DNA of 64,000 bases. Origin: Ehretia macrophylla (Eukaryota; Streptophyta; Magnoliopsida; Boraginales; Ehretiaceae). Numbering within the stretch: position 1 is the stretch's first letter; each line of letters opens with the position of its first letter. Made by a program: the position numbers and the translations under genes. The stretch is taken from assembly GCA_037974665.1 (NCBI GenBank), contig CM075768.1, positions 4,676,501 through 4,740,500 on the forward strand, read 5' to 3'. The notes beneath the pieces are model-generated. The model was not told the DNA's origin and ran no database searches. It worked only from the letters and a program-made list of their open reading frames with translations. Positions 478 to 39,903 of this stretch are shown here, one piece after another.

Positions 478-955
478 ATTATGGCATTAGTAAAGTATGG
501 CATTCCATTGTTGGATCACAGTACCAGTTTTTTTGTTATGGCAAGTTAAGATGCAGGCAATTTTGACCCAAATGGATCTAGAAGAGACTTTGTTGGGAAT
601 TGAGAAGATGCCATCAACATGGGATTAAGCTATAAAGTCAAGTAAGGATCGTAAAGCTCTGTCTCAAATTTATTTGCATTTAACTAATGAAATTTTAAGA
701 GATGCCATAAAAGAAAAAATTGCTTCTAGTTTATGGACGAAATTAGAGACCTTACGTGTATCTAAAAGCTTCACTAACAAACTCCATATGAAGCAACATT
801 TATATTCTCATGTATGGCTAAGGGTACACCTACTCTCATTCATCTGAATGAATTTAAAGGAATTATTTTCGATTTAGAGAATATGGATGTTAAGTATGAT
901 GATGAGGATTTAGCCTTGATATTGTTTTGTTCTTTGCCTCCTTCCTATAAGAACT
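478..955 (+). pseudogene. Copia element A, gag N-terminal part (broken)
   Basis: Translation with frame changes gives a Copia gag of the UBN2/Retrotran_gag_2 type. Readable stretches include QAILTQMDLEETLLGIEKMP, SLWTKLETLRVSKSFTNKLH and LILFCSLPPSYKNL. In-frame stops and frameshifts make it non-functional. The frame stops at PSYKNL, where the large LTR element at 956 is inserted, and resumes at 20256 with LRDTMLYIHDNIMLDKV. This shows that the two parts were once one gene. Confidence 0.8.
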
Positions 956-3230
956 TGTGACGCTCGAGCCTCCAGCATACTTATTTTACTATTACATGTC
1001 TTTTGTGCATTTAAATGTATATTTATTTGCTTTAACTTGGCTACTACTCACAGTGCATTTTTTACTGTCTAATTTGCATGAATTCGTATTTTTTTCTAAG
1101 TTACAGGACTCATAGGAGGAATGAGAAAAATGAGATTTGGTGCATTGCATATTGTGATAGCGCATTTAGAAAATGTTTCTTATATCGTATGAATAGTAAA
1201 ACAATGTTAATGAACTAGCTAGTTAGAATTGAACTTTGGGGCTTTAAATTGAACTAGTCTTGCATCAATAGTATTAAAATTGCCAAACACCCTTAACATA
1301 TAACTTAAAAGACCTCCTTTGCACAACATATCACACCAAACAAATTAGAAAATTCCCTTAAAGTCCCCCAACCCACCCAACGGCATAGAGAGGAGAAAAC
1401 GAGGAGAAATCCTCTTCAAGCTAGTCATTCGGAGCTCAACCAAACAATCCTCAAGGGTTTTCCACCTCTCCCAATCCTTCTACAATCATCCTCTAGCATT
1501 GGTAAGGGAGAAATTGCATTTTATATAAACTTGAATAGTTAGGGTTTATATTGAAATTTTTGATTTGTTGAATATTGAATTATCTATAATTGTTAATGTT
1601 TAAAATGCCTCTTATTATGTTTGTAGAACATATTTATGAGATTGTATAGCTTTGTTGCTGGATAAATTGCTTAATCTTTTACATAAAGTTAGGGTTCTTG
1701 TAATGAAATTGAGGATTTTGTGAAATCTTGCACCCTAGCTTGATTGATTGCTAATTATGCTTGATTTAGGAGTAAATGAACCTAGATTATAGCTTTGAAT
1801 GGGTTAGAATTGCTTGAATTGTAAGATCATTTAGTTAAAGTCAGATTAATAGGTACTATTCACTTAGGACCAATGAAACGTGACCCGATACTAGTTTTGA
1901 CAATTGATATGGACCCTAGGGATGCTAAAACGATTGTACGATAAAAATTATTAAAATTTGAGATAGTTGAAAATTAATGTCTTAATTGCGTCTAAAATAG
2001 AAATCAATTAAAATAAGGTACCGGGGTGAGGTTTAGCGTGCTAATGGGTCTTAAATAAGTAGGATAGAGCTTAACGTACTTTTATGGCACTTAAATGATG
2101 CACGGGTAGAATACTTGTAGTTCAAACGCACTAAGGGGCAATCGCGGCTTTTGGGTTAAATGTGGTTTAAATTATAGTATTGTGATTCTAAAGGGTGCCA
2201 TAAAATATAATTAGATGTGTTAAATGGTTTGTTTGTGGAACTAGAATATTGTGTTTCAAATATATGGCAAATTGTCATAATAGACAAAGGGGAAAAGTGA
2301 TTAAGTGAACTTGAATGTTGAAATAGCTTACAGTTCTACTTATCATGATATTTTAATGATTATAGAGTTTTTTGTATATTGGTGATTGTCTTATAATTGG
2401 TTAGTGAAGTGTTTAAAGGCACTTGGGTAGTATATGTATCTTGATTATATTATTTATATTGTTTGTTAATTGTATTGTTTGTATGATGTCAAGATTATGA
2501 CTCGTATACTAGACTACTTGAATGATTTCTTGGATTGTATGTTAAAATTAAAGTATATGAATGTGATGTTTTACTACGGATGGAATTCTAGTAAATGTTG
2601 CATGTTAATTTAGTAAACTATAAAGTTAGCTAACCTAGTCAGATGATTAATGATTGTTGTAGTTAAAGAGTAATCGAAGTAATGTTTGACCTTATGTTCA
2701 AGGTAATTGAGAATGATGTGAAGCCAAATCTTGCATCCTGAAGCTTGGTAGAGGTGAATGAGTCTTCATCCTTATGTGCATAATAGTTTATTTTCTTGTT
2801 CATAGATTATGTGATTTATTATAATTGTTAAAGTAATGTGTGCTTATTGATTATATATTATGTGTGAGGGCACCTACTTTGTTGTTCCTCGATTATGTGA
2901 TTATTAGATTATCTTATTTGTTATCATCTTGAGTGCATTGCATTGTGGTTGTGCAACCATTTGGGCATGGTAGTGTCAGGAAAGCCGGATGACATCGGGC
3001 TTGCCGGTATACTTTAGCTACCATGGTTGCCCAATCCTTCTCTCGCTTGGGATGCCGCCCAGGGAGAGTTGGGTCGTAGGATTTTGGAGTATATCCGGAG
3101 TATACCCAACTTGGAGTTATAAGGGGTATGCCGGCTTATAGTTATCGGTATATTATTCTTCTAGATTTTTAGTTGTGGCTCGTGGTTCGTGGTACGAATT
3201 CAAGGTTTACTGGTATTCCTTAGTGTGTAA
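956..3230 (+). mobile_element. 5' LTR of the large element, first part
   Basis: It begins TGTGACGCTCGAGCC and aligns along its length with the 3' LTR that starts at 17115. I count roughly ten mismatches in the first 120 bases, so the pair is not young. Homology stops abruptly after gtgtgtaa at 3230, where plastid sequence begins. The matching 3' LTR continues ctcttgcttaggtcc, a short stretch missing here, so about 16-18 bases of LTR were lost when the plastid DNA inserted. Confidence 0.9.
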
Positions 3231-3548
3231 ATATGGCTGTGATCTGTCATTACGTGCGACTATCTCCACTATAGAAAGAAAAAGAAAGAAAAATAAAATC
3301 TGCTAGTAAATACTATAAAAAAAATAGGCTTTCTACTTATGCATCGTCTAAAACAACGATTTTTATCAACTGTAGCAAAGAAAGAAACTTCATAAAAGTG
3401 CCAAAGTCACTGAATGGGTAAGTCGCCAATCCTTGGACTATGTAATGTACTTTATCTGCTAGGTTATGGGCGGGCATTTTACCAAAGGTTTCTAATCTAC
3501 CCTTGTGTGATTCCTATTGAAGCATATACTCGGGGGGTGGGTGCAGGG

Positions 3549-3688
3549 CGGACCGGTGGAGTATTCACAGGGGGTACTGCAGAACATGTGCGATCCCCTT
3601 CTAATGGAAAAATCAAATTTAATGAGGATTTGGTTCATCCGACACGTACACATCATAGACATCCCGCTTTTCTATGTTCTATAGACTC
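3549..3688 (+). pseudogene. rpoC2: rpoC2 fragment (plastid RNA polymerase beta'' subunit), forward piece
   Basis: The translation contains [20 protein letters not shown] followed by [20 protein letters not shown], a conserved stretch of plastid RpoC2. It ends near SID at 3685, where the next piece of the same gene continues in reverse orientation. It is a short internal fragment with no start or stop of its own and belongs to the NUPT. Confidence 0.88.
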
Positions 3689-3861
3689 CAGTGGATTTCG
3701 TCGTCTGAGTCAGAATAAATATGTTTTCGAACCTTCTCTTTAAAATTCAAAGTGGATGTTCCCGCGCGAATCTCGGCAATCACTTGTTCGGATTCTACAT
3801 ATTGATCATTTTGAACTAAAAGAAAACTTTTGGGTGGAATATTCACATTATGTATAATATC
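3689..3861 (-). pseudogene. rpoC2: rpoC2 fragment, inverted piece
   Basis: Read on the minus strand it gives [20 protein letters not shown] and then [20 protein letters not shown], ending IHWSL. In intact RpoC2 this follows a few residues after the forward piece at 3549-3688. The two pieces are therefore neighbouring segments of one gene with the second inverted. A longer open frame over this stretch also runs into rps18 antisense sequence and has no meaning beyond the fragment. Confidence 0.88.
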
Positions 3862-4057
3862 TTCATTTATTAATGAACAGGGAAAAATACTATCTAGACG
3901 AGTAAATAGATTGACCTTGAAACAACAACGATTAATTACTATTGCTATAAAACAAGCCTGTATTTTATCTTTGTTACCTTTTCTCAATAATGAGAAACAA
4001 TTTGAAAGAACCGAGTCGGCCGCTAGAACTACAGGTCTTAGAACCAGCAATAACTAG
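3862..4057 (+). pseudogene. rps18: rps18 3' part (plastid ribosomal protein S18)
   Basis: The frame reads [20 protein letters not shown], then [20 protein letters not shown], and ends at a stop at 4055-4057. It is the C-terminal part of plastid S18. The N-terminus is missing because the sequence is joined to the inverted rpoC2 piece. It begins the collinear plastid block rps18-rpl20-rps12-clpP-psbB. Confidence 0.88.
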
Positions 4058-4298
4058 CCTTACTCTTTATTCACTTGAATCATAATTCCAATCCAAACTC
4101 AAGGGCGGATTGGTGTTTTTTTGTTTGAAAAATCCGAGAATCTAGATTTGATTATCGTGTCGTAAGAAAAAAAACAAATCGGAAAAGAAGAAAACTTTTT
4201 TTTATTGAACGTGTTTATTCATTTTGAATATTTTAGCATATTTTCTCATAGTAATTTCTATTCTAGCCTCCCGGAGTTAATTCTCCGGGGAACTCTGT

Positions 4299-4672
4299 TT
4301 AAATTATTCTGGTGGATTCTTTCCAATCTACTTCTTTTATGATCTCGTTGGAAATCATATAAAGACAATTCCTATTGGATATAGCTATTTGTGCAAGTAT
4401 TTTACGATTAAGAAGCAGCTGTTTCTTGTACAGATCGTGTATTAATCTACTATAACTATAGGATACTCCCATTTCGCGAATTACTATGTTTATTTGAGTG
4501 ATCCATAATCGACGAAAATTTCTCTTTTGCCTATCCCTATCCCGATGAGCCGAAACCAAAGCTCTTATTTTCTGTTGAGTAATAGTTCGAGTAAGTCTTG
4601 AATGAGCCCCTCGAAAGCTTGATGCAAATAAACGAATTTTTGTTCTACGTATCCCCGTTTAATTCTGGTCAT
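4299..4672 (-). pseudogene. rpl20: rpl20 (plastid ribosomal protein L20), frameshifted
   Basis: The minus strand starts MTRIKRGY at 4672. A small deletion then removes the basic stretch that normally follows and shifts the frame. The remainder reads correctly in another frame ([17 protein letters not shown]) and then as [20 protein letters not shown] through to [15 protein letters not shown], with the stop at 4299-4301. Orientation opposite to rps18 is the normal plastid arrangement. Non-functional. Confidence 0.9.
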
Positions 4673-5431
4673 TGAATAAATGAAACTTTGACGAATAACT
4701 AATTGATTTCCTCTCTTTCAATTATTATTTTCCCCTTTCCTAGTTGATTAATAACAAAACAGATTTTTCCAATGTATAAAATAAAAATTCCAATGGCTTT
4801 GGCTACTATAACCTTCCCAACCACGATTTTTTTTAGGTATTTCACTATTGAATAAGAAATTGTCTTCTGCTAGGTGTCAAAAATATAGTAAATAAAAAAA
4901 AATAGAAATGGATAAAGAAATAGTGGGTTCCATCGTTTCTATGGTTACTTCTTAAACGGTGAGGTCTTTTCTATACACCGGAGCCTTTACTTATTTAATC
5001 AATGTTATTGGTAACTTGTATAGTTTACACTCTTTGGCTCTACCCATGAATTATCCAGTAATAGGTCTTTCACAATGAGATCTACTTATACAGTAACGGT
5101 ATTTAATTATGAAAGTTAGCTGGGTAGCTGACCCTCTTAGTCCGTTCTTGCCAGAGTGGGGGTCTAATCTTTATGTTTTTTAAATAAGATTTCCTTCGCT
5201 TAATGGATAACCATTTGCTACCAATGGAGAATTGCCTCTCATCTTAAATAGAGGTGATTGTATTTGCACCAATGGAAACCATAAATTTCATACACAATGA
5301 AGAGATATGATAGATTTTCTTATTTTTAAATAGTGAATGAAGTTCCTTCTTCAATTCTATCCTATTCACCGGTACTAATCATTGATACTGGAAAAGTCAT
5401 TTTCTTGCTTTTGTGCCAGCTCATGATCTAA

Positions 5432-5556
5432 ACAAGTCGCACATACACCCTAGTACATGTTCCTCGGTGTTGAGGGCATCCCCGAAGAGCGGTGGATTTC
5501 ATGACATTTCTCATTGGCTGTCTTATATTTCTAATAAGTTGTTTAATAGTTGGCAT
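5432..5556 (-). pseudogene. rps12: rps12 first exon (trans-spliced plastid S12), decayed
   Basis: The minus strand from ATG at 5556 reads [20 protein letters not shown], then [20 protein letters not shown] and LV. This is the separate 5' exon of the trans-spliced rps12 gene. Several substitutions are C-to-T or G-to-A changes relative to the usual protein. It sits between rpl20 and clpP as in the plastome. Confidence 0.88.
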
Positions 5557-5702
5557 CTTGAATTGTATACATAATGAATGGGCTGGTTTAGATTAATCCT
5601 AACCGGATGATTTGATTATGAATTACTTCCATTTAATAGAAATTAAATTCGGAGATAAAATCTCAAATCATGGATTTGCGCGAAATCTATGTTATGTTAT
5701 TT

Positions 5703-7686
5703 TCATTCAACCGCTACAAGATCAACAATTCCATAAGCTTGGGCTTCTGTTGTTGACATAAAAACATCTCTTTCCATATCTTCGGATACAACCCATAATG
5801 GTTTGCCTGTTCTTTGTACATAAACCCTTGTGAGGGTTTCACGCAGTTTCAGCAGTTCTTCCACTTCCAGGATAAATTCTCCCGTTTGTGCCTCATAAAA
5901 AGAACTAGCAGGTTGATGGATCATTACCCTGATGATCATAATAAAAAATTCCTCTATCTTCCATGATGAAGCGAAGAGAAAAGAAAGATAAAAATAATAA
6001 GAAAAAAAGATAGAATTGAACAACCGTACGGGCATCATTTGTGCATTGCATACGGCTCTACAATAAAATTGACCTTTACCCTCCATTGAAGAAAAATAGA
6101 ATATATCAAACCCAGAAGATAGGTAAATGATCAAAATGCCACCCTTCCTTTCGGAGGAATTAAAAAATACTATGATGGCTCCGTTGTTGTATATATTTAT
6201 TTTTTTGTCTATGATTCAGCAATCCCAAAGTTTCTTTTTGATTCGATCAAAATCTAGTTTTTTTTTTTTTGCACTCTTTCATAACATAAATCTTGTTAAG
6301 AGCCACCCGATGTGAAAACAAAAAAGTTTGTGATGCTGAACTGGACTCCCGATAGATAAGAGAAAATCGGAAATACCTTTATCTCATACTACTCTCTCGA
6401 TACATAATCTAATGTTTTGGAAAAACAATTCAAAAAAATTTCTCATATCGAATTCGAAGTACCATGCTATTATTACTTAATATTCATATGGCGAAGGCAT
6501 AGTCTTCTTTTTTCTCTCAAATAAAAACCTCATGGGCGCCAAGCGTGAGGGAATGCTATATGTTTGGTAATGTCTCCTCCGACCAGGATAAAATATCCCA
6601 TTGAAGCGGCTAATCCCATGCATATTGTATGGACATCTAGTTGCACAAATTGCATAGTATTATAAATAGCTATTCCATGTATTACCTATCCCCCGGGAGA
6701 GTTTATAAACAAATATAGATCCTTGGTATCATCCTCAATACTAAGATATACCATAAGACCAATAAGTTGATTCGAGATCTCGCTATCAACCTCTTGACCA
6801 AAAAAAAGTAATCTTTCTCGATAAAGTTGGTTGATTAGGGTAAAATTGTATCCCTTAGGAACCGTACATGCATCTTTTGATGCATACGGTTCAAAAAAAT
6901 TGCGAAAAAAAAAAAAAAGAATCTATGTATAGATTCCAGTCCTCTTTCTTTTTTATAGCAGGATTTTTCTGACTTCTAACGAAAGGGCTTTTTCTTCTAT
7001 TTTTCAGTTTTGACTCATTTCTCTTATAATAGAAAAAAGTCACTAAACCTCTCGAATTAACTTCCCATTGATGTATTCTTTCATCGAGATTCAATGCAAA
7101 TCACGATGGTATTTTTTTGTTCCTGAATGGGTCTCTTTCATCTTTTTAGGTTTATGCTCTACTCCGGGTAAAGATCCGCCCGATTTTGATTTGCACATAT
7201 AGGACAAATGTTCTTTTACCATTTCTTTTTGTTATTACTTTCTTTTTTTTTTTCAATTCCAATTTATTTCATACCTTCCACCAAGTATTTATTAACAGTT
7301 TGAGATCACCTCGCTTAGAAAATAGGATCTCTTTAGAAAACAAATAAGAAATAGGAATAGTAGATATATTACCAATTGGGTTTTTTTATAAACGGAGCCT
7401 GGATACTTCATTTTTTAGTCCAACTAAGCCAACAATAAATTAGTCTAATTGATAATAGTATAGTAATAGAATCCCCCAAAAATGGATCTAATTACACTTC
7501 GCGCTCCAACGTTTTGACGATTCAATTAATCTTTCTTGGGCGAACCAGAGGATATCTCGATCGGGGGAGAGAACGGGGAAATCCCATATGACCCAATATA
7601 TCTGACAAGTCGCACTATACGTCAACCCAAGATGCATCTTCCTCTCCAGGACTCCGGAAATGTACTTTTAGAACACCAATAGGCAT
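5703..7686 (-). pseudogene. clpP: clpP (plastid ClpP1 protease subunit), three exons, broken
   Basis: All three exons and both introns are present on the minus strand. Exon 1 (about 7686-7619) starts MPIGVLKVHFRSPGEEDASW. Exon 2 (about 6835-6535) contains [20 protein letters not shown] and NSPGG followed by a stop where Trp is usual. It ends in FPHA. Exon 3 (about 5930-5703) runs [19 protein letters not shown] to GIVDLVAVE and the stop. Ser and His catalytic regions are recognisable (CMGLAASMG and MIHQPASS). The in-frame stop shows it is dead. Confidence 0.92.
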
Positions 7687-8135
7687 TAAATGAAAGAAAA
7701 AGGACTAAGTACTATATTTCACTTTGATGTGGAAACGTAAAAATATGGTTTTATTGTCTTTATAATATTTTCTTTTATTGTATTTATTTTATCCATAGAT
7801 TAGAAAAATTCATAAAGAAAGACAGACTGAATAAAGTCAAATTATTGCGAATACGGTCTTCTAATGATGAATAAGTATGGACACATTTGCTCATAGAAAA
7901 TGGTATCAACCCCCCCCCCCATTGCGTATTGGTACTTATCGAGTATAGAACAAATCTGCTTCTCTTTGTTCCTACGAACAGAATTGTTCCATTATTACCA
8001 ACATAATAAAACAAATATTAATCGTTGTTCTGAAATAATCCACTGAACAGTGGAGGTTTATAGGATAATCATAGTATATTCCAATGTAATAAAGTTACGT
8101 AGTGTCTATTTATTTTTGAGAAAGGGGTATTTTCT
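7687..8135. other. clpP-psbB plastid spacer
   Basis: This is the spacer between clpP and psbB in normal plastid order. It includes a run of ten C at 7911-7920. An open frame of 76 codons on the minus strand has no resemblance to a plastid gene that I recognise. Plastid promoter elements are probably present but inert in the nucleus. Confidence 0.7.
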
Positions 8136-9662
<1,527 letters not shown>

Positions 9663-10004
9663 TAATTAGGAAAACAAAATTTTGAGATTCAAATCCAAGA
9701 ATCGTTCATGAATTCGCAATCAGCAATCAGTAGTTAATGGTTCCAATTTGTCATAAATTTTGACTTTTCCGACGGAAAATCCACATTTTCTTTTTCATTC
9801 AATAGAAAAGTGAGAGAGTTTTTAGCATTGTGGATTTAGTTTGAGATACTATACAATAAATAGAAGGGATGGATCAAATCAAATAACAAGGGGGAATGAT
9901 TTCTTTTAGGAAAAGGGTTAAATAAAATAGGACTCAAGATGCAAGTACAATAAAAAAAGCGGTTCAGTAATCCAGGAATATTTTCATCTATTTTGTATCA
10001 TTTT
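9663..10004. other. Plastid-derived spacer downstream of psbB
   Basis: AT-rich sequence follows the psbB stop. I could not find psbT, psbN or psbH, which normally come next. The next identifiable item is trnC-GCA, which in most plastomes lies far away beside rpoB. A junction between distant plastid segments must therefore lie in this stretch. Confidence 0.6.
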
Positions 10005-10075
10005 GGAGGCATGGCCAAGTGGTAAGGCGGGGGACTGCAAATCCTTTTTCCTCAGTTCAAATCCGGGTGTCGCCT
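10005..10075 (+). tRNA. trnC-GCA: trnC-GCA, plastid-derived, mutated
   Basis: A 71-base tRNA-Cys sequence can be folded: acceptor GGAGGCA with TGTCGCC, anticodon loop ACTGCAAAT with anticodon GCA, T-loop GGTTCAAATCC-like (here AGTTCAAATCC). Position 3 of the acceptor stem appears changed (A where C is usual), giving a mismatch. Being inside a NUPT it is probably not expressed as a functional tRNA. Confidence 0.85.
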
Positions 10076-10655
10076 GATCAACAAAAGACTCGAAATATCT
10101 TCTTATGTTCTGTTGATATAACTCGCCGAATTATTCCCCAGCAGAAGCAGAGGAAAGGACTGTTCATACTTGTTTACTTCTCAGCATCTGGTCTGGGTGG
10201 GGGTTTTCTAAAAAAATATAAATCCTTGCATCTAGGATTCAAAGAAATATTATATATAGTAATAGTAGAGGGGCTATCAAGACTTTGGGATTCCCTTCTA
10301 CTACTAAAGTCGTGTCTAATGACTGGATCTTGAACTAGATTGGAGAGCCTGATAGGAAAACGAATTCAATTAATCGTTGTAGTTGTAGAAGGGGGTGGAA
10401 GATACTTTATATACGACGAACTTGCATTGTTCAAACAACTATTCAAAGTTCCTAGAGCTCCTTGTAAGGCTTGTTGAAAAACCCATTGTCGTACTTGATT
10501 AATCGCCCTTTACTGTTGAATTGAGATGGGACGATTCTTTGAATCAAAGAATGATCAATAATATCAAGGTATATTGTCTCCTACTTAGACTGATAAATCC
10601 AAGAAAAATTATTATATCCTCGATTCAACGGAGAGAAATAAGTTTGGATATAATG
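10076..10655. other. Plastid-like stretch, not assigned
   Basis: This stretch lies between trnC and trnI-CAU and looks plastid-like in composition. It has an open frame of 104 codons at 10019-10333 that begins inside trnC and resembles no protein I know. I could not place the sequence in a known plastid gene or spacer by eye. Confidence 0.45.
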
Positions 10656-10718
10656 CTGATTGAACCTACGAATTCGCCAATTATAAGTTGGGCGCTTTAA
10701 CCATTCAACCATGGATGC
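10656..10718 (-). tRNA. trnI-CAU: trnI-CAU, plastid-derived, 3'-damaged, anticodon changed
   Basis: On the minus strand from 10718 the sequence begins GCATCCATGGTTGAATGG, as in plastid trnI-CAU. The anticodon loop reads CTTATAA where CTCATAA is expected, so CAT has become TAT. The 3' end after the T-loop is altered and the acceptor is incomplete. It lies just upstream of the ycf2 start, as in the plastid inverted repeat. Pseudo-tRNA. Confidence 0.82.
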
Positions 10719-10806
10719 TTAGCGAGGATCCTCGTACACGGTGCATAACCAAATTCCAATTGAAATGAAATATTTAGGATAAATCAATGCAATTTAGGAG
10801 GAATCA

Positions 10807-11000
10807 ATGAAAGGACATCAATTCAAATCTTGGATTTTTGAATTGAGTACACCTTACACCACGATTTTGAATCAAAAGAGAGATCTCAAGAAATGGCAGA
10901 TATATTCACTCTATCAATAACCGAGCTGGATCTGGTGTATCATAAGGGATTTGGCTTTTCTATTGATTCCTACAGATTGGATCAAAAACAATTCTTGAAT
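10807..11000 (+). pseudogene. ycf2: ycf2 N-terminal pieces, internally deleted
   Basis: ATG at 10807 gives [13 protein letters not shown], the ycf2 N-terminus. The sequence then jumps, in a shifted frame, to YTLHHDFES and [20 protein letters not shown], which lie hundreds of residues further on in intact Ycf2. A large internal deletion is therefore present. The piece ends at DQKQFLN near 11000, where a third part of ycf2 follows in reverse. Confidence 0.88.
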
Positions 11001-11667
11001 TATGAATGTCAACTAAGTATCGTAAGTAAATTACTCCCGGTTGTTCAATCATTTGATAACCAGAGTCATTCTTTGATAAATGATCACTATAAGTCAGACT
11101 CAATAGAATTTGATCAATCCTTTTTTCTATCGTTAAGGTGGAGAACTGAACCAAGAATTCTCTTTCTTCATCATCAATTGAATCACTGTTCGCGACCCAG
11201 GATTCTATTTTATCATCAATCCAATCCCCGTTCACGTTTTTTCTTTTTCTTACCAATGAATAGATCTCTTTACTTATATGACTTAGATGTCTCGTATTTC
11301 TTGAAAAAGTGATTCGATTAATGGGATTTGGTATGAGATCGATGAGATTGATATTCAAATATTTCTTCTTAGAACGTATTAATTTGACCCCATAAGCGGG
11401 ACCAAGCATGTTGCCGCCAGAAGCAGAATCCCGTATTTATTCTAGAGAATATCCTAATTGTTCCAGACCAACTAGAAAGAGATTCTTTAACCAGAAAGAA
11501 TTCGGTTCAGATGTAGGATACCTATCCAGAAGTTTTCACAACTCAATCATAGATGATGGAATCATCAAAGATTTGACCTTTTCGAACTCTATCTGTAACT
11601 CACTAGAGGCCCGGGAAACAAAAAGAAGATGTGTACGAACGAGATATCCAGCAACAAGAAGACATCT
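11001..11667 (-). pseudogene. ycf2: ycf2 internal piece, inverted
   Basis: The minus strand reads [10 protein letters not shown] near the right end, then [60 protein letters not shown] and [18 protein letters not shown]. This is the region before the ATPase-like part of Ycf2. It abuts the forward ycf2 piece at about 11000 and the retrotransposon LTR at 11667/11668. The join near 11000 shows a few shared bases. Confidence 0.9.
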
Positions 11668-12574
11668 AGTCCTTGGGGAATTACCTTATATCTTTTTTAT
11701 ATGTACATCTCGCTTGGTCCCTAAGTCCTTGGAAAGTTATATGTGATTGTTACCTTTTTTGTATTCTTTACTATGTTAAGTAGCTTGTATAATTGTATTG
11801 TGTGTTATATTGTTATCATTTCTTTTAGATTGCTTATTATAATTGTTTTACGGTGGTTGACTATTGTATTACACGATACTATTTTTCCAAACTCCCCGAT
11901 TAAAAGCTCTCTCCCTCACTGGGCATACGTGTTTGTATGCTCACTCCTTCTTTCTAACTATTTCAGGTTCGCTGCCTTTGGAGCCTAAGGAAAATAAAGC
12001 TCGAGAGTCTCTTTGAGTAGATGTCCTAGCCTTACTTGATCATTTTATGTAAGTTTGTGATAATTATGTTCTTTTGAGGCCTGCGTGCCTTGTATATATT
12101 TGTTGTTGTAAGAATGTAACAAGTAAAAGTTAACCTAGTATTTCGACATGTAATAACTTAAGGAATTACTTTATTGTCTAATTTGCTTGCATGCTTGTGT
12201 GAATTGAGATGGAAAATGATTGAAAGATTTAACCTTTGGGTAGATTAAGTAGAGAATATTAGAGTAGTATGATAACCAAACTCATGACTTAGGAATTCTA
12301 TGACTATCTGTATACTTGTTGTAATCTTTTATTGAGGTCCAAGGCTCGGATGGCCTTGAGAAGTTGTTGCATTTGATCATAAAGGAGGATAGAACTGTTA
12401 AGGAGAGTGGTTATGGGGTTGTGGTAAAATATTATGTGATCAGGTAAATTGATAGTCCTATAAACAGGGAAAGCTCCATCCGTTTTTCCTAAATTCTGTG
12501 CCTGGGTTTGGATTTGGGTTGAGATTAGTTTGATTAATAGAGGTTCCAGTTCTATGAGGAATCGGGGCGTTACA
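11668..12574 (+). mobile_element. 5' LTR of the large element, second part
   Basis: Homology with the 3' LTR resumes at agtccttgggg (11668) and runs to GGGGCGTTACA at 12574. It contains the CTAAGTCCTTGGAAAGTTAT and GGGCATACGTGTTTGTATGC regions also seen at 19390 and 19605. Together with 956-3230 it restores an LTR of about 3.1 kb. Confidence 0.9.
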
Positions 12575-12576
12575 GT

Positions 12577-12588
12577 TGGTATCAGAGC
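12577..12588 (+). other. Primer-binding site (tRNA-iMet type)
   Basis: TGGTATCAGAGC begins two bases after the LTR end. It is a perfect complement to the 3' end of plant initiator tRNA-Met, the usual minus-strand primer of many plant LTR elements. Confidence 0.92.
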
Positions 12589-13535
12589 TTAGATGCTCTC
12601 AGCCGGGACAAGGTCCTCGGTCTGTCGGGTAGAAAACCTCAGGTGCATGCATGTGAAGTACGTTTTGAGTAGGTGTGTACTGGCATGTGAGACTTGGGTG
12701 TCATGAATGAAAATGTGCCTCTGTGAGATTTGCTTATGTAAAATATGAAGAATATGTAGATGTGCAAATATTTGACTATGTGTACTTGTGTGGTTTTGAT
12801 TGGAGTTATGTACCCTATGTGTCCTAACTGTGCAACATGTAAAAGTTGTGTGGTAAGTGTATTCATGTGGTTAATCGTGCATCTAAGTGATTACTTGTGT
12901 GCTTACTATCTTGAATATATGTGATAATGTGCATTAAGTGTTTATTTTATGTTTAATCTATCGCATACATGCATTATCCCTTGAATTGGTAAGTAACTCT
13001 TTCCTCCCTTAAAGAGGAAGTGGTTGATCGGTCAACTATCGGTGTTCAGAAGATGATATTTCTTATGTGGTAATCAATGGTTGGTTCTAATGCATGGTGG
13101 TTGGACTTCTTATTCAGCAATTATGTTAGAGTTCAGTCATTGGGATTCTTATTGAGTATTATCTCAGGATTTTTGCATGGCACTTGGGTATTCTTATGAC
13201 ACTTGAATTTGGGGATTCTATTAGACCTCTTAATTGCGAGAATTCTTATTTGGAATCTTGAATGGTCTTTTACTGGAGCCTTTATTTGGCCCTTGCTCTG
13301 GACTTCTTATCGGTATTTCTCGACATCATTTGATGGGAATTCTCATATGGTAGTCGCATTCAGAATTCTAATTGGTATATTCGTAGGAGCCTTTGTTTGG
13401 CTACCTCACTTGGTATTTCATCGGAGGAGTTCACTGGTTTTCTTACTGGACTTCTTAGTGGTAATCTAGTGGGTACTCTTGCTAGTCTTCTTGGATATTC
13501 CACTCCTTGGTTTCAAGTCCGACAGGAGCTGCTAC
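12589..13535 (+). mobile_element. Non-coding interior of the large element, with degenerate repeats
   Basis: The interior has no gag, protease or polymerase motifs. From about 13060 to 13500 it is built of degenerate units around ggacttcttat, ggattcttattgag and gagccttt, which create a spurious 88-codon open frame at 13203-13469. An 88-codon frame of hydrophobic residues here is a by-product of the repeats. The 5' side has TG-rich runs (12640-12960). Confidence 0.7.
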
Positions 13536-16500
13536 TGTAACGCCTCGATCCCTCACGAGATTAGGACTCCTATTTATCACGCTATTCTCAACCCAAATCC
13601 AAACCCTGGGCACGAAATTTAGGGGAAAACGGACGGAGTTTCCCCTATATATAGGACTATCTGGAAACTTACAAACAACAACATACAACCACAAGACCAT
13701 AATCTTCAACCTCAATCCATTTCATCCTTACAAGCATGCAAGTCAACTAGAACAAGGTAAAGATTACAAATTAATAAAACATTACAAGCCATTCATAACT
13801 ATCAATACATTCTAAACTTAACTTTACAATTACAAAACTGAATTCAGTGACAATCCATGTAAGCTAGCATAGTCAACACAAAACTCTCGAGCCTTCTTTT
13901 CTACCTCTGATTGCACTGATATTGAAAGGTGTTAGAAACGAGGGTGAGTATACAACATGTATACTCAGTGAGGGAGGTGATGCAGCATACCGAGTGTGCA
14001 ATGCAGCAACTTAACACAATTAATACAATAAATAAGCAATGAATAACAATTCTAATACCACATTTTAAAAGGATACAATCGACAACCCTTATCACTCCAA
14101 ATCTTCGATCCCCGATCCACGAACCACGATCTCAATCTCGATATGCCGACATCCCTTACACCAATGGGTACTCCGGATGTACCCGATCCTACGACCCAAC
14201 ACCCCCTGGCAATCTCCGGACCAAGCGAGTGAGGGAATAGCAGACGGAGCTAAGGCAACCAACACTGGAAAGCCCGATGCCGCCCAGCAAGGCCATCGCA
14301 TCCGCCGCGACAATGAGGTTGCTTAACCACGATGCAATGCAAGAATGATAACAATGACAATATAATCAAGAAATACATTTAAGGACAAAAAGTAGGTTGT
14401 CATCACACCAAGTTACAATTTAGCAACAATAAGCATATATCAATTACGCAATTATACTAAACAATATACTCTTTTAGCAAGAAAATAACTATAATGCACG
14501 TAAGGATGCAGGTCCCTCACCTTTATCAAGCTTCAAGATGTAAAAATGGCTTAGTTACTCCAACTTTCCTTTAGCTCGAATATGCAAATCCCTAGTATAT
14601 TCATTTAAGTATAACACTTTAGAAATTGATTATATTAACTCCACATTAGCACGTAATCCCAAATAACCACATATTATTTATGTATGTCATATTGCCACAT
14701 AGCCTAAGTAATCAAATGAATAACTCTAAAACATTTCTTTAATCTTACCAAGGACATTAACTATATCAACTTTAACAAGTTAACTTCATAACTAATTCAA
14801 CTTCATTTATATTGCAAAGGAATATCAAACTAAGTATTAAATCAAGACAACTATGCTTAACACTTAAACATAATTCAACTATAACAAAATCTAAGAATCA
14901 TTATCATGTTTATTCACCCAAGTACAACATATATAACTCAATTAAAAATCAAATATAGCAATTAAGTAGTCCAATTAACTAACTAAGTAACAAGTTCAAC
15001 CAATTCATTAAAATTCTAACAAAACTCTTTTCCAATTGCTTACGAATTAGGTTCTAAACTTCACGTACGATATGAAACTTCAAATCTAACTTTACTAATC
15101 AATTATTGTCACCTTATGACCCACGTAAATGCCAAGAAATCCCATTTTTAAGCATGTTAACTCAAAAACTTCGAAAAGCCTCTTAGGTGATTTGAACTAT
15201 ACCTACTTAATCCGATTAGCAATTAAACGTCATAATTACATTTTAGAGGCTTCCTAACACATCTAAGACTAATTTCATAATCAAACAAGTCGAATTAAAA
15301 CCTTTGTTCCAAAGTCCCCTAATGACACCTTTAATCAATGCCAAAAATGCATTAGAGATATTATCTAACATATATAACACCATTCAAGGCATTCAAACCC
15401 ATCCGGACAACAAATATACGCATAACCCTTTTTTGTGTGCAATTCAATTAATCAAGTTCTAACCAATTTAAACACTAATCTAGGTTTAATGTCACCTATA
15501 GCACCGTTAGATAACATAAAATCAAGCTTCAGTCACACTACCTCAAAACACAAAACAAGTCAAGTTAGAGCTCTATGAAAGCATGCATTTTTCTAAATCT
15601 TCTAACAGAACCCTAACTTTATCAAATTATTTACCTATTCTATTCATCTCCAAATTCTCTTATGTTTTATGTATAAACGTAGCTCTTCGAGTGTAGATAA
15701 CTTTAGAACCAAACGGAACTCAATTCCAATCTAAATTCCACAAGTTATGACATTTTTCGTACAACTGCACGAAGTGCCCCCTGCACCAGCGATTTTCAAA
15801 CACATTTCTGAAATGCTTAAATCGGAGGGTCAAAACGTTAGAATTAGGTTTAGCTCTAGAAATCAACATTTGTTTAGAACTTCCTAATATAGCTACTGTG
15901 TAAATTTTGTTAATTTTAGAGTACGTTTTCTATGTCAAAAATGGTTCCCAACGTGATGGACAATAAGTTGCCCAGATTACTACCTTTGCACTAATGTTCA
16001 ATTAGTTTAACCTCTTGCTCAATCCACTAGCTTAGCATGTTACTAACTCCACAACTAACTTAAAGCTTCACCTAGGTACTTCCTCAAACATCTTAAAGGC
16101 ATTTCAAGTTCTCAACACCATTTAATGCAATTAGCTAATCAACCAATAATACATAGGCATACAAGCAAATACATGTCAAAAGTTTACTCTACAAGCTCTC
16201 TAGCTATTATTTCATGTATTAGAAGCAATAAAATGATTAGAAATGCAAAAACTCCAAAATTCGCAGGTTACTATTCACAAGCACTATTCATCTTCTTCCC
16301 CAAGTCTCCAAACTTCATTTTCAACCACAAAATTCTTCAAATAGCTATAAAAGAATTTCGTATGATCATAATAGAGGCCAATTTAAGCATAAATAACCAT
16401 AGATAAGCAAAATATAACAAATCTCAAAATTTAAAGTTTGTAGCTAAACATTTAAATGCACAAATATAGGGGAATCCCTCACCAAATTAGAGATGTAGGA

Positions 16501-17043
16501 GCAAAGGAGAAGCTTTTTGATGGTTTGAAATCCTTTGGAAGAGGTTGGAAGATCAAATTGAGCAAAATTTGCATGAAAAATTAATATTCCCGTATAGGAT
16601 TTTTTTGGCTATTTTGGGCATTTTTGGCTTATTTTTTGAATATTTGTATGCATATATGTTATATGATATATATATGTATGTGTTGTATATTTAGCTTAAG
16701 TCAATTACCATAAAATCTTGGTCAAACTATGCTAAATCTCAATTTAAATACTAACTAGTTTAAAAACAATGTTTACATTACGTAACACTATTCAATGAAA
16801 CACTAATCATTTTTCAAACGCAAGTTCCCGACCTTCAAAATCCAAAATTATAAGTTCCCGATTCCTTTTATAAGTTATACTATCTAGGAAAAATATTAAT
16901 TCGAGCAAATTAGACAGTTGATTTTCTTATGAATAGTAACCACTAATAAAACATATAATCAAGAATAAGAAATGCACATTGAAATGCTCAAAGAGACATG
17001 CAACAGTTACGAATGAACGTGATGAGAAATCTCGGGCGTCACA
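13536..17043 (-). mobile_element. Reverse-oriented solo LTR, 3.5 kb, perfect 5-bp target duplication
   Basis: It starts TGTAACGCCTCGATCCC and ends ATCTCGGGCGTCACA, the reverse complement of the LTR ends of the host element. Internal sequence near 13590-13680 also matches the reversed LTR end (caacccaaatccaaacc). The flanks are GCTAC at 13531-13535 and GCTAC at 17044-17048. There is no interior, so it is a solo LTR left by recombination. It is a related family or subfamily, about 370 bases longer than the host LTR. Open frames in it carry no known domain. Confidence 0.88.
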
Positions 17044-17100
17044 GCTACAGATATTGAGAGTTTCTTTTGAACCTAAGAAATTGCGAGGACACAATTTGTT

Positions 17101-17114
17101 TAAGGGGGAGAGAG
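17101..17114 (+). other. Polypurine tract before the 3' LTR
   Basis: The tract taagggggagagag directly precedes the 3' LTR start TATGATGCCCGAGCC. Its position and base content fit the plus-strand primer of an LTR retrotransposon. Confidence 0.85.
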
Positions 17115-20100
17115 TATGATGCCCGAGCCTCCTGCATACTTATTTTACTATTACATGTCTTTTGGGCATTTAAATGTGCATTTATTTGTTTTAACTTGGC
17201 TACTATTCACAGTGCATTTTTTACTGTCTAATTTGCTCGAATTCGTATTTTTTCTAAGTTACATGACTCATAGGAGGAATGAGAAAAATGAGATTTGGTG
17301 CTTTGCATATTGGGAGAGTGCGTTTAGAAAATGTTTCTTATATTGTATGAATAGTAAAACAATGTTAATGAACTAGCTAGTTAGAATTGAATTTTGGGGA
17401 TTTAAATTGAACTAGTCTTGCATCAATAGTATTAAAATTGCCTAACACCCATATAACTTAAAAGACCTCCTTTGCACAACATATCACACCAAACAAATTA
17501 GAAAAAAGAAGGAGAAATCCTCTTCAAGCTAGCCATTTGGAGCTCAACCAAGTAATCCTCAAGGGTTTTCCACCTCTCCCCTACAATCATCCTCTAGCAT
17601 TGGTGAGGGAGAAATTGCATGTTATATAAGCTTGAATAGTTAGGGTTTATATTGAAATTTTTGATTTGTTGAATATTTAATTATCTATGATTGTTAATGT
17701 TTAAAATGCCTCTTATTATGTTTGTAGAACATATTTATGAGATTGTATATCTTTGTTGCTGGATAGATTGCTTAATCTTTTAAATAAAGTTAGGGTTCTT
17801 ATAATGAAATTGGTGATTTTGTGAAATCTTGCACCCTAGCTTGATTGATTACTAATTATGCTTGATTTAGGAGTAAATGAACCTAGATTATAGCTTTGAA
17901 TGGATTAGAATTGCTTGAATTGTACGATCATTTAGTTAAAGTTACATTAATGGGCACTATTCACTTAGGACCAACGAAACATGACTCGATATTAGTTTTG
18001 ACACTTGATATGGACCCTAGGGATACTAAAACGGTTGTATGATAAAAATTATTGAATTCTGAGATAGTTGAAAATTAATGTCTTAATTGTGTCTAAAATA
18101 GAAATCAATTAAAGTAAGGCACCGGGGTAAGGTTTAGGGTGCTAATGGATCTTAAATAAGTAGGATAGAGCTTAACGTACTTTTATGGCACTTAAATGAT
18201 GCACGGGTAGAGTACTTGTAGTTCAAACGCACTAAGGGACAATCGGGGCTTTTAGGTTAAATGTGGTTTAAATTATAGTATTGTGGTTCTAAAGGGTGTC
18301 ATAAAGTATAATTAGATGTGTTAAATAGTTTGTTTGTGGAACTAAAACATTGTGTTTCGAATATGTGGCAAATTGCCTTAATAGACAAAGGGGAAAAGTG
18401 ATTAAGTGAACTTGAATGTTGAAATAGCTTACAATTCTACTTATCATGATATTTTAATGATTATAGAGTTTTTTGTATGTTGGTGATTGTCTTATAATTG
18501 GTTAGTGAAGTGTCTAAAGGCACTTGGGTAGTATATGTATCTTGATTATATTATTTATATTGTTTGTTAATTGTATTGTTTGTAAGATGTTAAAATTATG
18601 ACTCGTATACTAGACTATTTGAATGATTTCTTGGATTGTATGTTAAAATTAAAGTATATGAATGTGATGTTTTACTACAGATGGAATTCTAGTAAATGTT
18701 GCATGTTAATTTAGTAAACTATAAAGTTAGCTAACCTAGTCAGATGATTAATGATTGTTGTAGTTAAAGAGTAATCGAAGTAATGTTTGACCTTATGTTC
18801 AAGGTAATTGAGAATGATGTGAAGCCAAATCTTGCATCCTGGAGCTTGGTAGATGTGAGAGAGTCTTCATCCTTATGTGCATAATAGTTTATTTTCTTGT
18901 TCATAGATTATGTGATTTAGTATAATTGTTAAAGTAATCTGTGCTTATTGATTATATATTGTGTGTGAGAGCATCCTACTTTGTTGTCCCTTGATTATGT
19001 GATTATTCGATTATCTTATTTGTTATCATCTTGAGTGCATTGCATTGTGGTTGTGCAACCATTTGGGCATGGTAGTGTCTGGGAAGTCAGGAGGCATCGG
19101 GCTTGCCAATATACATCGGCTACCATGGTTGTCCAATCTCTCTCTCACTTAGGATACCGCCCAGGGAGAGTTGGGTCGTAGGATTTTAGGGTACATCCAG
19201 AGTACACCCAACTTGGAGTTATAAAAGGTATGTTAGCTTATCGTTATCAGTGTTATTATTCTTCAGGATTTCTATTTGTGGTTCGTGGTTCGTGGTACGA
19301 GTTCAAGGTTTACTGGTATTCCTTATTGTGTAACTCTTGCTTAGGTCCTAAGTCCTTGGGGAGTTACCTTATATCCTTTTTATATGTACCTCTCGCTTGG
19401 GCCCTAAGTCCTTGGAAAGTTATATGTAATTGTTACCTTTGTTGTGTTCTTTACTATGTTAAGTAGCCTGTATAATTGTATTGTGTGTTATATTGTTATT
19501 GCTTCATTTAGTTGCTTATTATAATTGTTTTACGGTGGTTGACTATTGCATTGCACGAACCTTTTTTTCCTAACTCCCTGATTAAATGCTTCATCCCTCA
19601 CTCGGCATATGTGTTTGTATGCTCATTCCCTCTTTCTAACTATTTCAGGTTTAGTACCTTTGGAGCCTAAGGAAAATAAAGCTCAAGAGTCTCTTTGAGT
19701 AGATATCCTAGCCATACTTGATCATTTTATGTAAATTTGTGATGATTATGTTCTTTTGAGGCCTACGTGCCTTGTATATATTTGTTGTTATAAGAATGTA
19801 ACAAGTAAAGGTTAACCTAGTATTTCAACATGAAATAACTTAAGGGATTACTTTATTGTCTAATTTGCTTGCATGCTTGTGTGAATTGAGATGAAAAATG
19901 ATTGAGGATTTAACCTTTAGGTAGATTAAGTAGAGAGTATTGGAGTGGTATGATAACCAAACTCATGACTTAGGAATTCCATGACTATCTGCATGCTTGT
20001 TGTAATCTTTTGTTGAGGTCCAAGGCTCAGATAGCATTGAGGAGTTATTGCATTTGATGATAAAGAATGATGGAACTGTTAAGGAGAGTGGTTATGGGAT

Positions 20101-20255
20101 TGTGGTAAAATATTATGTGAGCAGGTAAACTGATAGTCCTATAAACAGGGGAAACTCTGTCTGGTTTCCCTAAATTTTGTGCCTGGGTTTGGATTTGGGT
20201 TGAGATTAGTTTGATTAATAGAGGTCCCAGTTTAGTGAGGAATCGGGGCGTTACA
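17115..20255 (+). mobile_element. 3' LTR of the large element, uninterrupted, 3141 bp
   Basis: It starts TATGATGCCCGAGCC (TG changed to TA) and ends GGGGCGTTACA. It is the intact reference for the interrupted 5' LTR. Small open frames at 17116-17376 and 19230-19466 have no recognised domain and are probably chance frames. The body includes ttaggatttt-rich and TG-rich stretches. It is followed by GAACC and the resumed Copia gag. Confidence 0.92.
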
Positions 20256-20833
20256 GAACCTTAGAGATACAATGTTATATATTCATGATAATATCATGTT
20301 AGATAAAGTCTAGGAGGCCTTAAAGTCAATGAATAAAATTGACAAGTAGGTTACTAATGTCTCAAAGAATCATGCAAAGGGTCTGGTTGTTAAAGGAATA
20401 TCAACAAAAAAAAGTCTGGGAAAAATTTATAAAAGTAGATCAAAATCCAAGACTAGGAACATGACCTGTAATTATTGTTTGAAAAAAGGTCACATCAACT
20501 ATTTTAAGTTGCAGAATAAAAATAAAAAAGAAGAAAATAATGACCAAGCAGAGAAAACTGGCCAAGCCAATGTTGTTACCGATACAGATAGTGATGGAGA
20601 TATCTTAATAGTGTCTGATGACTGTTCTAAAACAAAATCTGAATGGGTTCTTGGTACTGCATGTACATTTCTTATGTGTACTAATCAGCACTAGTTCTCA
20701 ACTTATGAAACTACTTCTAAAGGTGTAGTTATTGTTGGTAACAATGCCTCATGCAAAGTTGTTGGTATAGGAACTATGAAAATTCAAATGTATGATGGTG
20801 TAATTAGAACATTAACTGATGTGAGACATGTCA
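20256..20833 (+). pseudogene. Copia element A, gag zinc knuckle and protease (broken)
   Basis: The gag frame resumes with LRDTMLYIHDNIMLDKV. A CCHC knuckle is recognisable in CNYCLKKGHINYFKL (the last Cys of the usual CX2CX4HX4C is changed to Phe-Lys context), at 20464-20510. A degraded protease region follows: SEWVLGTACTFLMCTNQH and later VVGIGTMKIQMYDGVIRTLT. It stops at DVRHV, where element B inserts. Stops and substitutions make it dead. Confidence 0.8.
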
Positions 20834-24419: not shown

Positions 24420-25011
24420 TACACAGAAATGTCAGAAAATACTATCCCTTGGATCGGACTTTTCTGCAGAAATAAGTTGTATGGTGTCAATTTTAAAGAT
24501 TGGTACAGGACCTTAGATCTATTCTTAAAAGGGAACAATATTAGGTTTGTCCTGACAGAGAATCATCGAGGACTCCTTGAGGATTCCGATAATCATTGAC
24601 ATGAGGTCGAAAGCTAATGGGATCGGGCTAATGATATGGTCATTAAGATAGTCCTAGAAGCCCTATCAGACACTTTACGGTATCAACATGAGAATATAAC
24701 AGTGACGTCGCACTTGCTAACTTCGTTGAAGGTAGTCTGTGATATGATAATAGTTAAGATGGAAGAAGGAACACCCATCAAGAAACATATCCAAGAAGTG
24801 ACGAGCCATCTTTATCTTGCCATTCTCATGGGAGTAAGGATTAGTCCTCAAGAAGAGGTAAATCTAGTCCTGGATACTCTACTAAGAAGTTTCGACCAAA
24901 TCAAGCTCATTCATATAATGGGGCATTTGAAACTGGAACTACGCCAGCTTGTGGCTGTTCTTGAAAACTTGGAGGCACTGATAAACGGAACCATGAGGAT
25001 AAGGACCAGAC
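24420..25011 (+). pseudogene. Copia element B, gag
   Basis: The frame MSENTIPWIGLFCRNKLYGV, then NFKDWYRTLDLFLKGNNIRF, is the N-terminus of a Copia gag. After stops near 24598 it continues as ANDMVIKIVLEALSDTLRYQ and MIIVKMEEGTPIKKHIQEVT, matching the gag of Angela/SIRE-like Copia. It breaks off at RTRLLG where an LTR begins at 25012. No functional capsid protein can be made. Confidence 0.75.
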
Positions 25012-26781
25012 TATTGGGAATATGCCCTGCAAGCCAATCATTCGATAAAGGATGATAGGGATATTTGTGTAATGAAACGATCTTTGTTATAAAGTTTTAA
25101 TCAAATAAAAGTACCATATGGTGTTTACCTTTATCTCTTATACGTTCATATATCGTCTAGCTGTATATTACGTATAACTGATAAGGTCCTTGGATATATC
25201 GGTATAGGGTTGAACCATAAGAGCTTATGGTTGATGAGAATCGACACCTAAGACATACCTAAAGCCTGTCCTAGGCCGTAGGATTCATCAAGACTGGGCA
25301 TTAATGAGTCCAGCGAGACTGACATGTAGTTAGCTCTATCTAGGTTGATCTCATTGACCAAGTGACATGAGATGTCAAGGCTAATACATGGGTATGTAAG
25401 GAGACATGTACATCAGACACAATCCGTAGAGAACACTCAATGGGGGCTTTATCCGCCTAAGTCAATGAGAAGGTTCTCAGGTGATAGTTGTGCAAAGTAA
25501 TCCTTTGACTCGAGGACATCATAGTAGCTTGTAAGCAACTCATTGTTCTTTGGCCCTAGATAAAAGGGAGGAAGATAAAACCTGCTTGAAAAGGGATTCA
25601 GGTATAGTCAAGTACTTGCGAAGCTAGTGAGTGTCGCTGCGAGGATCTACTACTCTGGATGAAAGAGAGAATGCCCTATGTCGTCTCATAGAGATGTTGA
25701 CAGAAATCCATGGCCACGGTGATATGATTGGATCATACAGGAAAAGTCAACAGAACATAGAAGCAAGCTTATCAGGGTTTGACTGACATTGACCATACCC
25801 TAAGGCAAGCTCGGGGCATCTAGTGGAAGGAATGGATTGTACGTTAACTAGTCGCCAAAAGGTTCTTCAATAAGAAAGCTTAGATTAAGCATTCAAGCTA
25901 TCTGGTCGTAGGGAAGTGTTGCTAGACGCCAACCTCGATTAGTAGCAGTTAGAAGGAGTTCTAATGGAGATGGATTAATTGGTATTATCCCAGCTACTAC
26001 CGGCTTAGCACTCGAACCTACAGGATCGCACACAAGCTGAAGGGTTAGAACTATGAGGGATAGAATAGAGAAGTCACGCTAGCACCAGGATCTTCTCGTA
26101 TTTTATCTAGAAGCAATTATATAATGGATTGCATATGGTAAGAATGGGTTTAGGGAAACCATTTGAGTATGCAAGTAAGAGAGAATGTTTGATGGTTAAA
26201 CGTTTGGCTTAGAGTCAAGGGCAATTTGGAAAATTGGCTTTTGTATAAGTTGAATTGATAATTAATTGAATGTCAATTAATTATGGGTTGATGTCTAATT
26301 AACTTATAGTTGATTAGAAAAAGGTTATAAGCTGAATTTAAAGAACCCTATAAGGTCTAGGGTCAAGGTGCAAATATTGAAAACTTATAGCACCTTATAA
26401 ATACAGTTTAAAGTGAAACCCTAGGAGAGAAGATCAGAAAAATTTTCAGCAACCCTCTCTCTCACAAAAACCTAGCCGCCACTCTCTCTCTTTCCTTCAG
26501 AGTTGTGCCATTTCATTGAAGCTCAGGCAAGACCTTGATTCCCCTTATTCTAGCCTCGACGTGGTGTGTGTGAGATCGTAGAGGGCTGCTACGTTGTGGT
26601 CTCCAATCCAAGCAAACAATTCAAAGTCTTCTTCAAGAGGTAATGAATTTTTCAGATTCAACTTTGCTTGGTTTTATCATGTTTTCGGATTTAAATGCAT
26701 ATTTGGATGATTCAATTCTTGGTTCTCTAAGCTTTTATAACTTTATTCTTCATGTTTCCGCTGCGCTATATGTGTTTTACA
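25012..26781 (+). mobile_element. LTR (element C) inserted in element B
   Basis: It starts tattgggaatatgccctgca and ends gctatatgtgttttaca. The start is close to the Copia LTR consensus with TG changed to TA. It interrupts element B between gag and its zinc knuckle. Clear 5-bp target duplications were not found (cagac and tgtta), so a simple solo-LTR history is not proven. A decayed relative of the part 25180-25690 lies at 57460-57945. Confidence 0.6.
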
Positions 26782-39000: not shown

Positions 39001-39903
39001 CAATCGAGCAAAAGAGCTTCTTAAAATAGCCCAAGATAACATCATTGAAAACAGAATGGTCCTCGGTCCAGTTACCATCGTTGAGCTTAATCCTCAGAAT
39101 TTTGTTTCGAGCTCTTCTTTGGTTGACAGAGGCGTGGAAAAAGAGGGTATTCTTGTCGCCTGAGTCAAGCCATTTGACACGGGCTCTATCCGACTAGTAC
39201 TTTTCTTCAATATTCCAAAGTCTTTCTAATTCAGCAATCATAGCACAGTATTCTTGCTGATTGTACCCGTCAGCATTCTGAGATGAGAACCAGCTTAACT
39301 TCTGTTTAAACTTTTCAATTTTTGCCTTGTTTGGTCTCAAAGAGTTTATGCTCCAACGAACAAGTGTTTTTTCGCATTTTTTCAGATTCTGTCTGACATC
39401 AACTATAGCCATTCTCCGATGAGAGCTATTCCAATTTTGACGAATCACTGGTTCATAGGAGGCGTCATTAGCCCAAGCCGATTCAAAGTAAAATCTCTTG
39501 GATTTCTGTTTTGCAAACAAGTTATCAAGATGAAGAATAATTGGGGCATGATCTGATCCCATAGAAGGGAGAACGGCAACTCAGGCATTAGGAAATCTGG
39601 TCATCCATTTTGTATTTGCCAATGCTCTATCAAGTTTCTGAAAGATAAGCATACCTTCTCTTCTATTGGACCATGTAAAGCTACAACCTTTGCTGGCAAT
39701 AGCCACAAGCCCAGCCTTGTTAATAAACTGGCAGAAATCATAAATATCTTTTTTTGCTTTTGGGATACCGCCACTTTTTTCTTCCTGGCATTTGATAGAA
39801 TTAAAATCACCAATAAAGACATGCTGGAGGTAGGAATGCTTCTGAACTTGGATAATAGACTCCCTGAATTTCCTCATTTCAACCTTAGACGGGTAACACA
39901 TAA
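36030..39903 (-). mobile_element. L1-type LINE, minus strand, 5'-truncated
   Basis: Read on the minus strand it runs endonuclease, RT, zinc finger, RNase H, poly(A). Endonuclease (39901-39194): HVFIGDFNSI, CSFTWSNRREG and MGSDHAPIILHLD; about the first third of the domain is missing. RT (39034-37808): TNKASGPDGFSGVFYRKFWP, ISCTNFLYKILSKIIVLRL, KIDIEKAYDKVEWDFLELVL and LLFADDTLI with the catalytic FADD. A zf-RVT region lies about 37130-36900, and an RNase H-like domain at 36677-36081. The poly(A) is the T run at 36033-36047. Several stops (for example at 38387 and 39581) make it inactive. Confidence 0.93.

Follow-up and report, generated by a model that had tools for sequence, protein, structure and literature searches.

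In a 64,000-nucleotide stretch of the genome of the plant Ehretia macrophylla (GenBank assembly GCA_037974665.1, contig CM075768.1, positions 4,676,501 to 4,740,500 of the forward strand; hereafter the window, by whose numbering all positions are given), a long terminal repeat (LTR) retrotransposon-like element at 956-20255 has its 5' LTR, and only that one, interrupted by about 8.4 kb of inserted DNA (about 3231-11667). The insert is a mosaic of plastid-derived fragments, a small piece of the LTR is lost at the site, and the inserted DNA has decayed with a bias from G/C to A/T. Very probably, the insert arose when a chromosomal break was repaired with shredded plastid DNA as filler, giving a rearranged nuclear plastid DNA (NUPT) inside an LTR.

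An insert in one of two LTRs

Self-comparison of the window places the 5' LTR at 956-12574 and the 3' LTR at 17115-20255. The two copies are collinear along two stretches, 958-3238 against 17117-19341 (91.5% over 2283 columns, E = 0.0) and 11668-12575 against 19351-20256 (91.4% over 908 columns, E = 0.0). They are paired LTRs with TG..CA ends, a single change giving the 3' copy a start of TA. The flanks of the element, GAACT (951-955) and GAACC (20256-20260), form a short target-site duplication in which 4 of 5 bases are the same. Additionally, TTGGTATCAGAGC at 12576-12588 (+) follows the 5' LTR and AAGGGGGAGAGAG at 17102-17114 (+) precedes the 3' LTR; these resemble a primer-binding site and a polypurine tract, respectively. 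Because the ends, the flanks, and both of these stretches fit, the two LTRs are parts of one insertion, as the original prediction had stated. Derivation of the two LTRs from different elements was ruled out by the target duplication and the collinearity.

When 956-3230 and 11668-12574 were aligned to 17115-20255, the check proposed with that prediction, both breakpoints were located: the LTR breaks off after GTGTAA (about 3230) on the left and resumes at 11666-11668 on the right. Both LTR parts directly adjoin the insert, which is absent from the 3' LTR. In the local alignments, about 17 bp of LTR (19334-19350 of the 3' copy) is lost from the 5' copy at this site, in agreement with the 16-18 bases and the one-sided presence claimed previously. 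The LTR on each side of the insert is the same LTR, placing the plastid sequence in the nucleus.

The interior of the element (12575-17114) holds an inverted, related LTR of 3508 bp at 13536-17043 (-), which matches LTR positions 3-614, 1685-2186, 2409-2598, and 2976-3141. Its similarity to the LTR of the host element is 67-84% across five matching BLAST stretches, indicating a related subfamily, and the perfect target duplication GCTAC/GCTAC at 13531-13535 and 17044-17048 identifies it as a solo LTR. After its subtraction, about 1.0 kb of host interior is left, in which none of the 8 open reading frames (ORFs) within or at the edges reached a Pfam cut-off; one match among them, to gag_pre-integrs, had E 0.068 (13.4 bits against a cut-off of 28.4). 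The gag-pol coding domains of an autonomous LTR retrotransposon were thus not found, and the element is non-autonomous or eroded, with no lineage assigned. Elsewhere in the window, 24636-25055 (+) has a weak copia-type gag match under the cut-off (E 0.0015), and 51557-53210 (-) has weak matches to the LTR of the element (nhmmer E 2.1e-7 and 4.1e-4); the latter stretch is perhaps an older relative, judging by these matches.

Plastid content of the insert

Protein and RNA-family searches divided the insert into at least eight segments of mixed orientation, in the order rpoC2 (+), rpoC2 (-), rps18-rpl20-rps12-clpP-psbB, trnC, atpF (-), ycf1 (+), ycf2 (+), and ycf2 (-) (Table 1). This count takes trnC as a segment of its own and uses what we take to be the plastome gene order. 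The plastid proteins matched are rpoC2, S18, L20, S12, ClpP, CP47/PsbB, AtpF, TIC214/Ycf1, and Ycf2, and the RNA-family search found the clpP intron, plastid untranslated region (UTR) families of clpP, rps12, and rps18, and tRNA-Cys. With the exception of about 1.0 kb, the insert is therefore plastid-gene-derived sequence, as in a NUPT, and its segments derive from separate parts of the plastome and vary in orientation, as in a rearranged NUPT. The plastid origin given in the original prediction is borne out by the protein, RNA-family, and tRNA-Cys matches; the description as a single block gives way to at least eight rearranged segments.

Table 1. Features of the element and its plastid insert (window positions).
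Feature	Position	Strand	Remarks
Left target-site copy GAACT	951-955	.	Read directly; 4/5 bases as in right copy GAACC 20256-20260
5' LTR, part before insert, starts TGTGACGC	956-3230	+	91.5% to 3' LTR
First stretch of insert, no plastid match	3231-3547	.	No RNA family; ORFs 3340-3513 (-), 3272-3406 (-), 3511-3681 (+) without Pfam match at E 1
rpoC2 piece, residues 339-384 of chain 8w9z_c	3549-3686	+	E 1.7e-23; no Pfam; NCBIfam below cut-off
rpoC2 piece, residues 388-451 of 8w9z_c, inverted relative to preceding piece	3685-3876	-	E 6.6e-31; best row 8xzv_D residues 389-451, E 4.4e-31
5.8-kb segment: rps18 3' part (+), rpl20 (-), rps12 exon 1 (-), clpP with introns (-), psbB (+)	3870-9662	+	Left edge approximate, 3854-3882
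psbB in 5.8-kb segment	8136-9662	+	Premature stops at codons 91, 129, 188, 197
tRNA-Cys(GCA)	10005-10075	+	RNA-family search; flanks 9663-10004 and 10076-10422 without plastid match
atpF piece, residues 135-163 of chain 6fkf_b	10423-10509	-	E 8.2e-11; NCBIfam none; Pfam below cut-off only
ycf1 (TIC214) piece, residues 1548-1597 of chain 8z9y_A	10518-10667	+	E 1.8e-13; no Pfam at E 1
Plastid-ycf2 5' UTR family match, sub-gathering	10644-10718	+	50.9 bits against gathering 65.7, E 9.3e-9
ycf2 piece, residues 604-653 of chain 8xku_D	10848-11003	+	E 5.3e-17; Pfam Ycf2
ycf2 piece, inverted, two collinear parts of 8xku_D: 1435-1588 (10990-11424), 1357-1398 (11539-11664)	10990-11664	-	E 4e-74, E 2.2e-15
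5' LTR, part after insert, ends GTTACA	11668-12574	+	91.4% to 3' LTR
Primer-binding-site-like TTGGTATCAGAGC	12576-12588	+	Read from sequence
Nested solo LTR, related subfamily	13536-17043	-	BLAST; GCTAC/GCTAC flanks
Polypurine-tract-like AAGGGGGAGAGAG	17102-17114	+	Read from sequence
3' LTR, uninterrupted; keeps 19334-19350 missing from 5' copy	17115-20255	+	Self-comparison, local alignment

The assignments of rpoC2, atpF, and ycf1 rest on solved-structure chains. Pfam gave no match for rpoC2 and none at E 1 for ycf1; for the atpF piece, only matches below the cut-off were returned, the best being an unrelated cytokine family (E 0.0024). The tRNA-Cys(GCA) is presumably of plastid type, and the middle 5.8 kb from rps18 to psbB follows what we take to be the standard plastome order. 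Pieces on opposite strands abut at two places, where rpoC2 residues 339-384 (+) meet 451-388 (-) and ycf2 residues 604-653 (+) meet 1588-1357 (-); the two ycf2 matches overlap by 14 bases at the alignment edge. Comparison of the insert with plasmid sequences gave no match, nor did a 20-mer and a 24-mer of the window in viral contigs or the 24-mer in genome contigs; these searches turned up no plastome of the host. For psbB, rpoC2, atpF, ycf1, and ycf2, working plastid genes in the nucleus were considered and rejected, psbB having four premature stops and the other four genes being present as fragments.

Decay of the insert and of the LTRs

The psbB copy keeps its 508 codons and stop without net length change. 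Compared to chain 7oui_B, presumably from Arabidopsis, 55 of the 508 codons differ, four of these being premature stops. Three differences were dropped since the residue of the window is shared with chain 3jcu_B or 5xnl_B (spinach and pea, as we take them to be), a check covering codons 1-219 only. Among the 52 changed codons that remain, 34 fit a G/C-to-A/T transition, 5 fit the reverse, and 13 are of other kinds. This is the C/G-to-T/A bias described for NUPT decay in the accessible part of PMC6376042.

Such a history has a bearing on whether the insert is an assembly artefact, in which the assembler merged a plastid contig or read with the LTR. Plant libraries are rich in plastid reads, and assemblers are prone to err in repeats such as LTRs. 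However, psbB has a nuclear-type pattern of decay, the shuffled pieces are unlike what a join to real plastid DNA would give, the LTR parts adjoin the insert directly, and the target duplication of the element is kept. Because four premature stops interrupt psbB and 34 of its 52 changed codons fit G/C-to-A/T transitions, the insert is old, decayed nuclear DNA and not a join to a plastid contig. The artefact is therefore considered most improbable, and the plastid-contig join named in the original prediction as what would overturn it does not fit the psbB decay or the shuffling. These observations leave room for a join to another nuclear NUPT contig.

The LTR pair provides a measure of age, with 153 transitions and 57 transversions in 3125 sites (Kimura two-parameter distance 0.071). 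If LTR rates by methylation context are applied to psbB at equal age, 39.8 G/C-to-A/T changes are expected and 34 are seen, a ratio of 0.85; the ratio is 0.90 with the left LTR part only and 0.76 with the right part only. Changes in the CG context (10 of 62 psbB sites; 0.157 per copy in the LTRs) and in the CHH context (19 of 337; 0.057 per copy) are in agreement. Two biases run in opposite directions, as plastid variation of the host plant itself may inflate the psbB count, especially beyond codons 1-219, and every C/T difference between the LTRs was taken as C-to-T, inflating the LTR rate. By this substitution record, the insert appears to be about as old as the element, the two insertions lying close in time. 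Since their ages are so alike, the dates do not settle the order.

Origin of the insert and relation to known systems

These features are consistent with the following sequence of events. An LTR element without recognised coding domains would have inserted into a plant nuclear chromosome. Soon after, a double-strand break in its 5' LTR would have been mended by end joining, with several shredded plastid fragments ligated in as filler during a single event and about 17 bp of LTR lost, yielding the rearranged NUPT of about 8.4 kb. From then on, the insert and the element would have been silenced nuclear DNA that decayed in parallel, chiefly through C-to-T changes, with methylation as the probable cause of the bias. 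The original prediction had read the small deletion as fitting end-joining repair; the loss does fit, and the end joining itself is what we infer from it. Rearranged NUPTs, capture of filler at breaks, and surroundings rich in transposable elements are described in the available portions of PMC7037861, PMC6215612, and PMC3989485.

Several observations weigh against break repair in this form. In 3231-3547, 9663-10004, and 10076-10422, about 1.0 kb altogether, no RNA-family match showing plastid origin was found, and seven ORFs within or across these stretches (3272-3406, 3340-3513, 3511-3681, 9971-10330, 10177-10365, 9839-9997, and 9931-10074) gave only Pfam matches above E 0.01, none bearing on plastids. 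Without context, the decay ratio is 1.24 (95% 0.87-1.80), a hint that the insert is slightly older than the element; this candidate was rejected on the ratio corrected for CG, CHG, and CHH contexts. In the CHG context, psbB has decayed less than the LTRs have, with changes at 5 of 97 sites compared with an LTR rate of 0.111 per copy. The two LTR parts also differ in divergence from the 3' LTR (left 134/2219 sites, right 76/906, Fisher P = 0.02), the left part being the less diverged, perhaps through gene conversion. According to passages of the literature, NUPTs are also shuffled after integration (PMC7037861), and Arabidopsis and maize, unlike rice, show a significant excess of transposable elements round NUPTs (PMC3989485).

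Shuffling after integration would also fit a reading in which plastid DNA entered this spot more than once or was rearranged there later, which overlaps with the repair account. NUPTs tend to cluster, as stated in an excerpt of PMC3989485, and the two rpoC2 pieces are gene neighbours yet inverted, as a later inversion would give. However, no LTR copy lies between the pieces in the self-comparison, and the view given in PMC7037861 is that fragments become linked before insertion or in the course of it. Multiple events are unlikely, though not negligibly so. A further reading differs in source only, the fragments having come by way of a mitochondrial genome that had taken up and shuffled plastid DNA. 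Plant mitochondria do contain plastid-derived sequence, as part of PMC6852956 reports, and the stretches of the insert without a plastid match would be in keeping with this route. However, no mitochondrial gene or RNA family was among the matches for the scanned ORFs and stretches, in libraries that exclude mitochondrial spacers, and this source is regarded as improbable.

As to the order, a new copy leaves reverse transcription with matching LTRs. An insert confined to one LTR, as here, therefore post-dates synthesis of the complementary DNA (cDNA). The likeliest order is element first and plastid insert later, with break repair after integration as the simplest account, and this order is not strictly fixed. 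The original prediction, which held it to be fixed, was too strong on this point; the decay ratios of 0.85 and 1.24 do not separate the dates, and capture by cDNA would look alike. Under such capture, one LTR of the extrachromosomal cDNA would have taken in the plastid fragments before integrase inserted the entire unit. The target duplication does surround the whole unit, insert included, and insert and element cannot be told apart in age. However, we know of no precedent for capture in cDNA, no search having been made for one. The insert also sits at a distance of 2.3 kb from the LTR end, well away from where integrase acts, and the route described in the accessible text of PMC7037861 is capture at chromosomal breaks. 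It is thus very doubtful that extrachromosomal cDNA was the recipient, and just as doubtful that capture by the retrotransposon's own cDNA, or during integration, let a mobile element bring shuffled organellar DNA into the chromosome.

Apart from the element, the window has an uninterrupted 975-codon pentatricopeptide-repeat ORF with 21 PPR_2 stretches at 58248-61175 (+), which by its reading frame is likely an intact PPR gene. Remains resembling a long interspersed nuclear element are found at 34381-35289 (+) and 37808-39034 (-), with a zf-RVT domain on the plus strand and, on the minus strand, reverse-transcriptase matches in two ORFs, one of them under the cut-off.

A plastid insert in a single LTR amounts to a natural double-clock experiment. 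The sister LTR supplies both the pre-insertion site and the local substitution spectrum, and the latter serves as a yardstick for NUPT decay that requires no external calibration. In this case, the LTRs of the element have diverged by 7%, and the 8.4-kb insert with its many joined fragments appears to have persisted for about the same time as the element. In the open-licence literature, as far as its accessible text goes, no paper on plastid DNA inside an LTR was found, which is weak evidence of absence. The closest known systems share part of this configuration. Rearranged NUPTs likewise have several plastid origins, non-uniform orientation, and C/G-to-T/A-biased decay in the available parts of PMC7037861, PMC3989485, and PMC6376042, whereas the target here is one LTR whose sister shows the empty site and provides an internal clock. 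Complex numt/nupt and numin inserts joined by non-homologous end joining (Portugez et al. 2018, PMC6215612, in excerpt) also combine several organellar fragments per insert; no mitochondrial fragment was recognised here. Nesting of organellar DNA and LTR elements, with target duplications, is seen in the nuclear mitochondrial DNA of maize chromosome 9L, where, in the portion available of PMC4632043, the elements entered the organellar DNA, in contrast to organellar DNA in an element here. A NUPT closely tied to LTR elements is known from papaya as well; by the passage in PMC7037861, it was amplified near Ty3-gypsy elements and is multi-copy, whereas the present one lies inside one LTR. Therefore, the process is ordinary in plants and of a known kind, and this copy is a new example with an unusually readable record.

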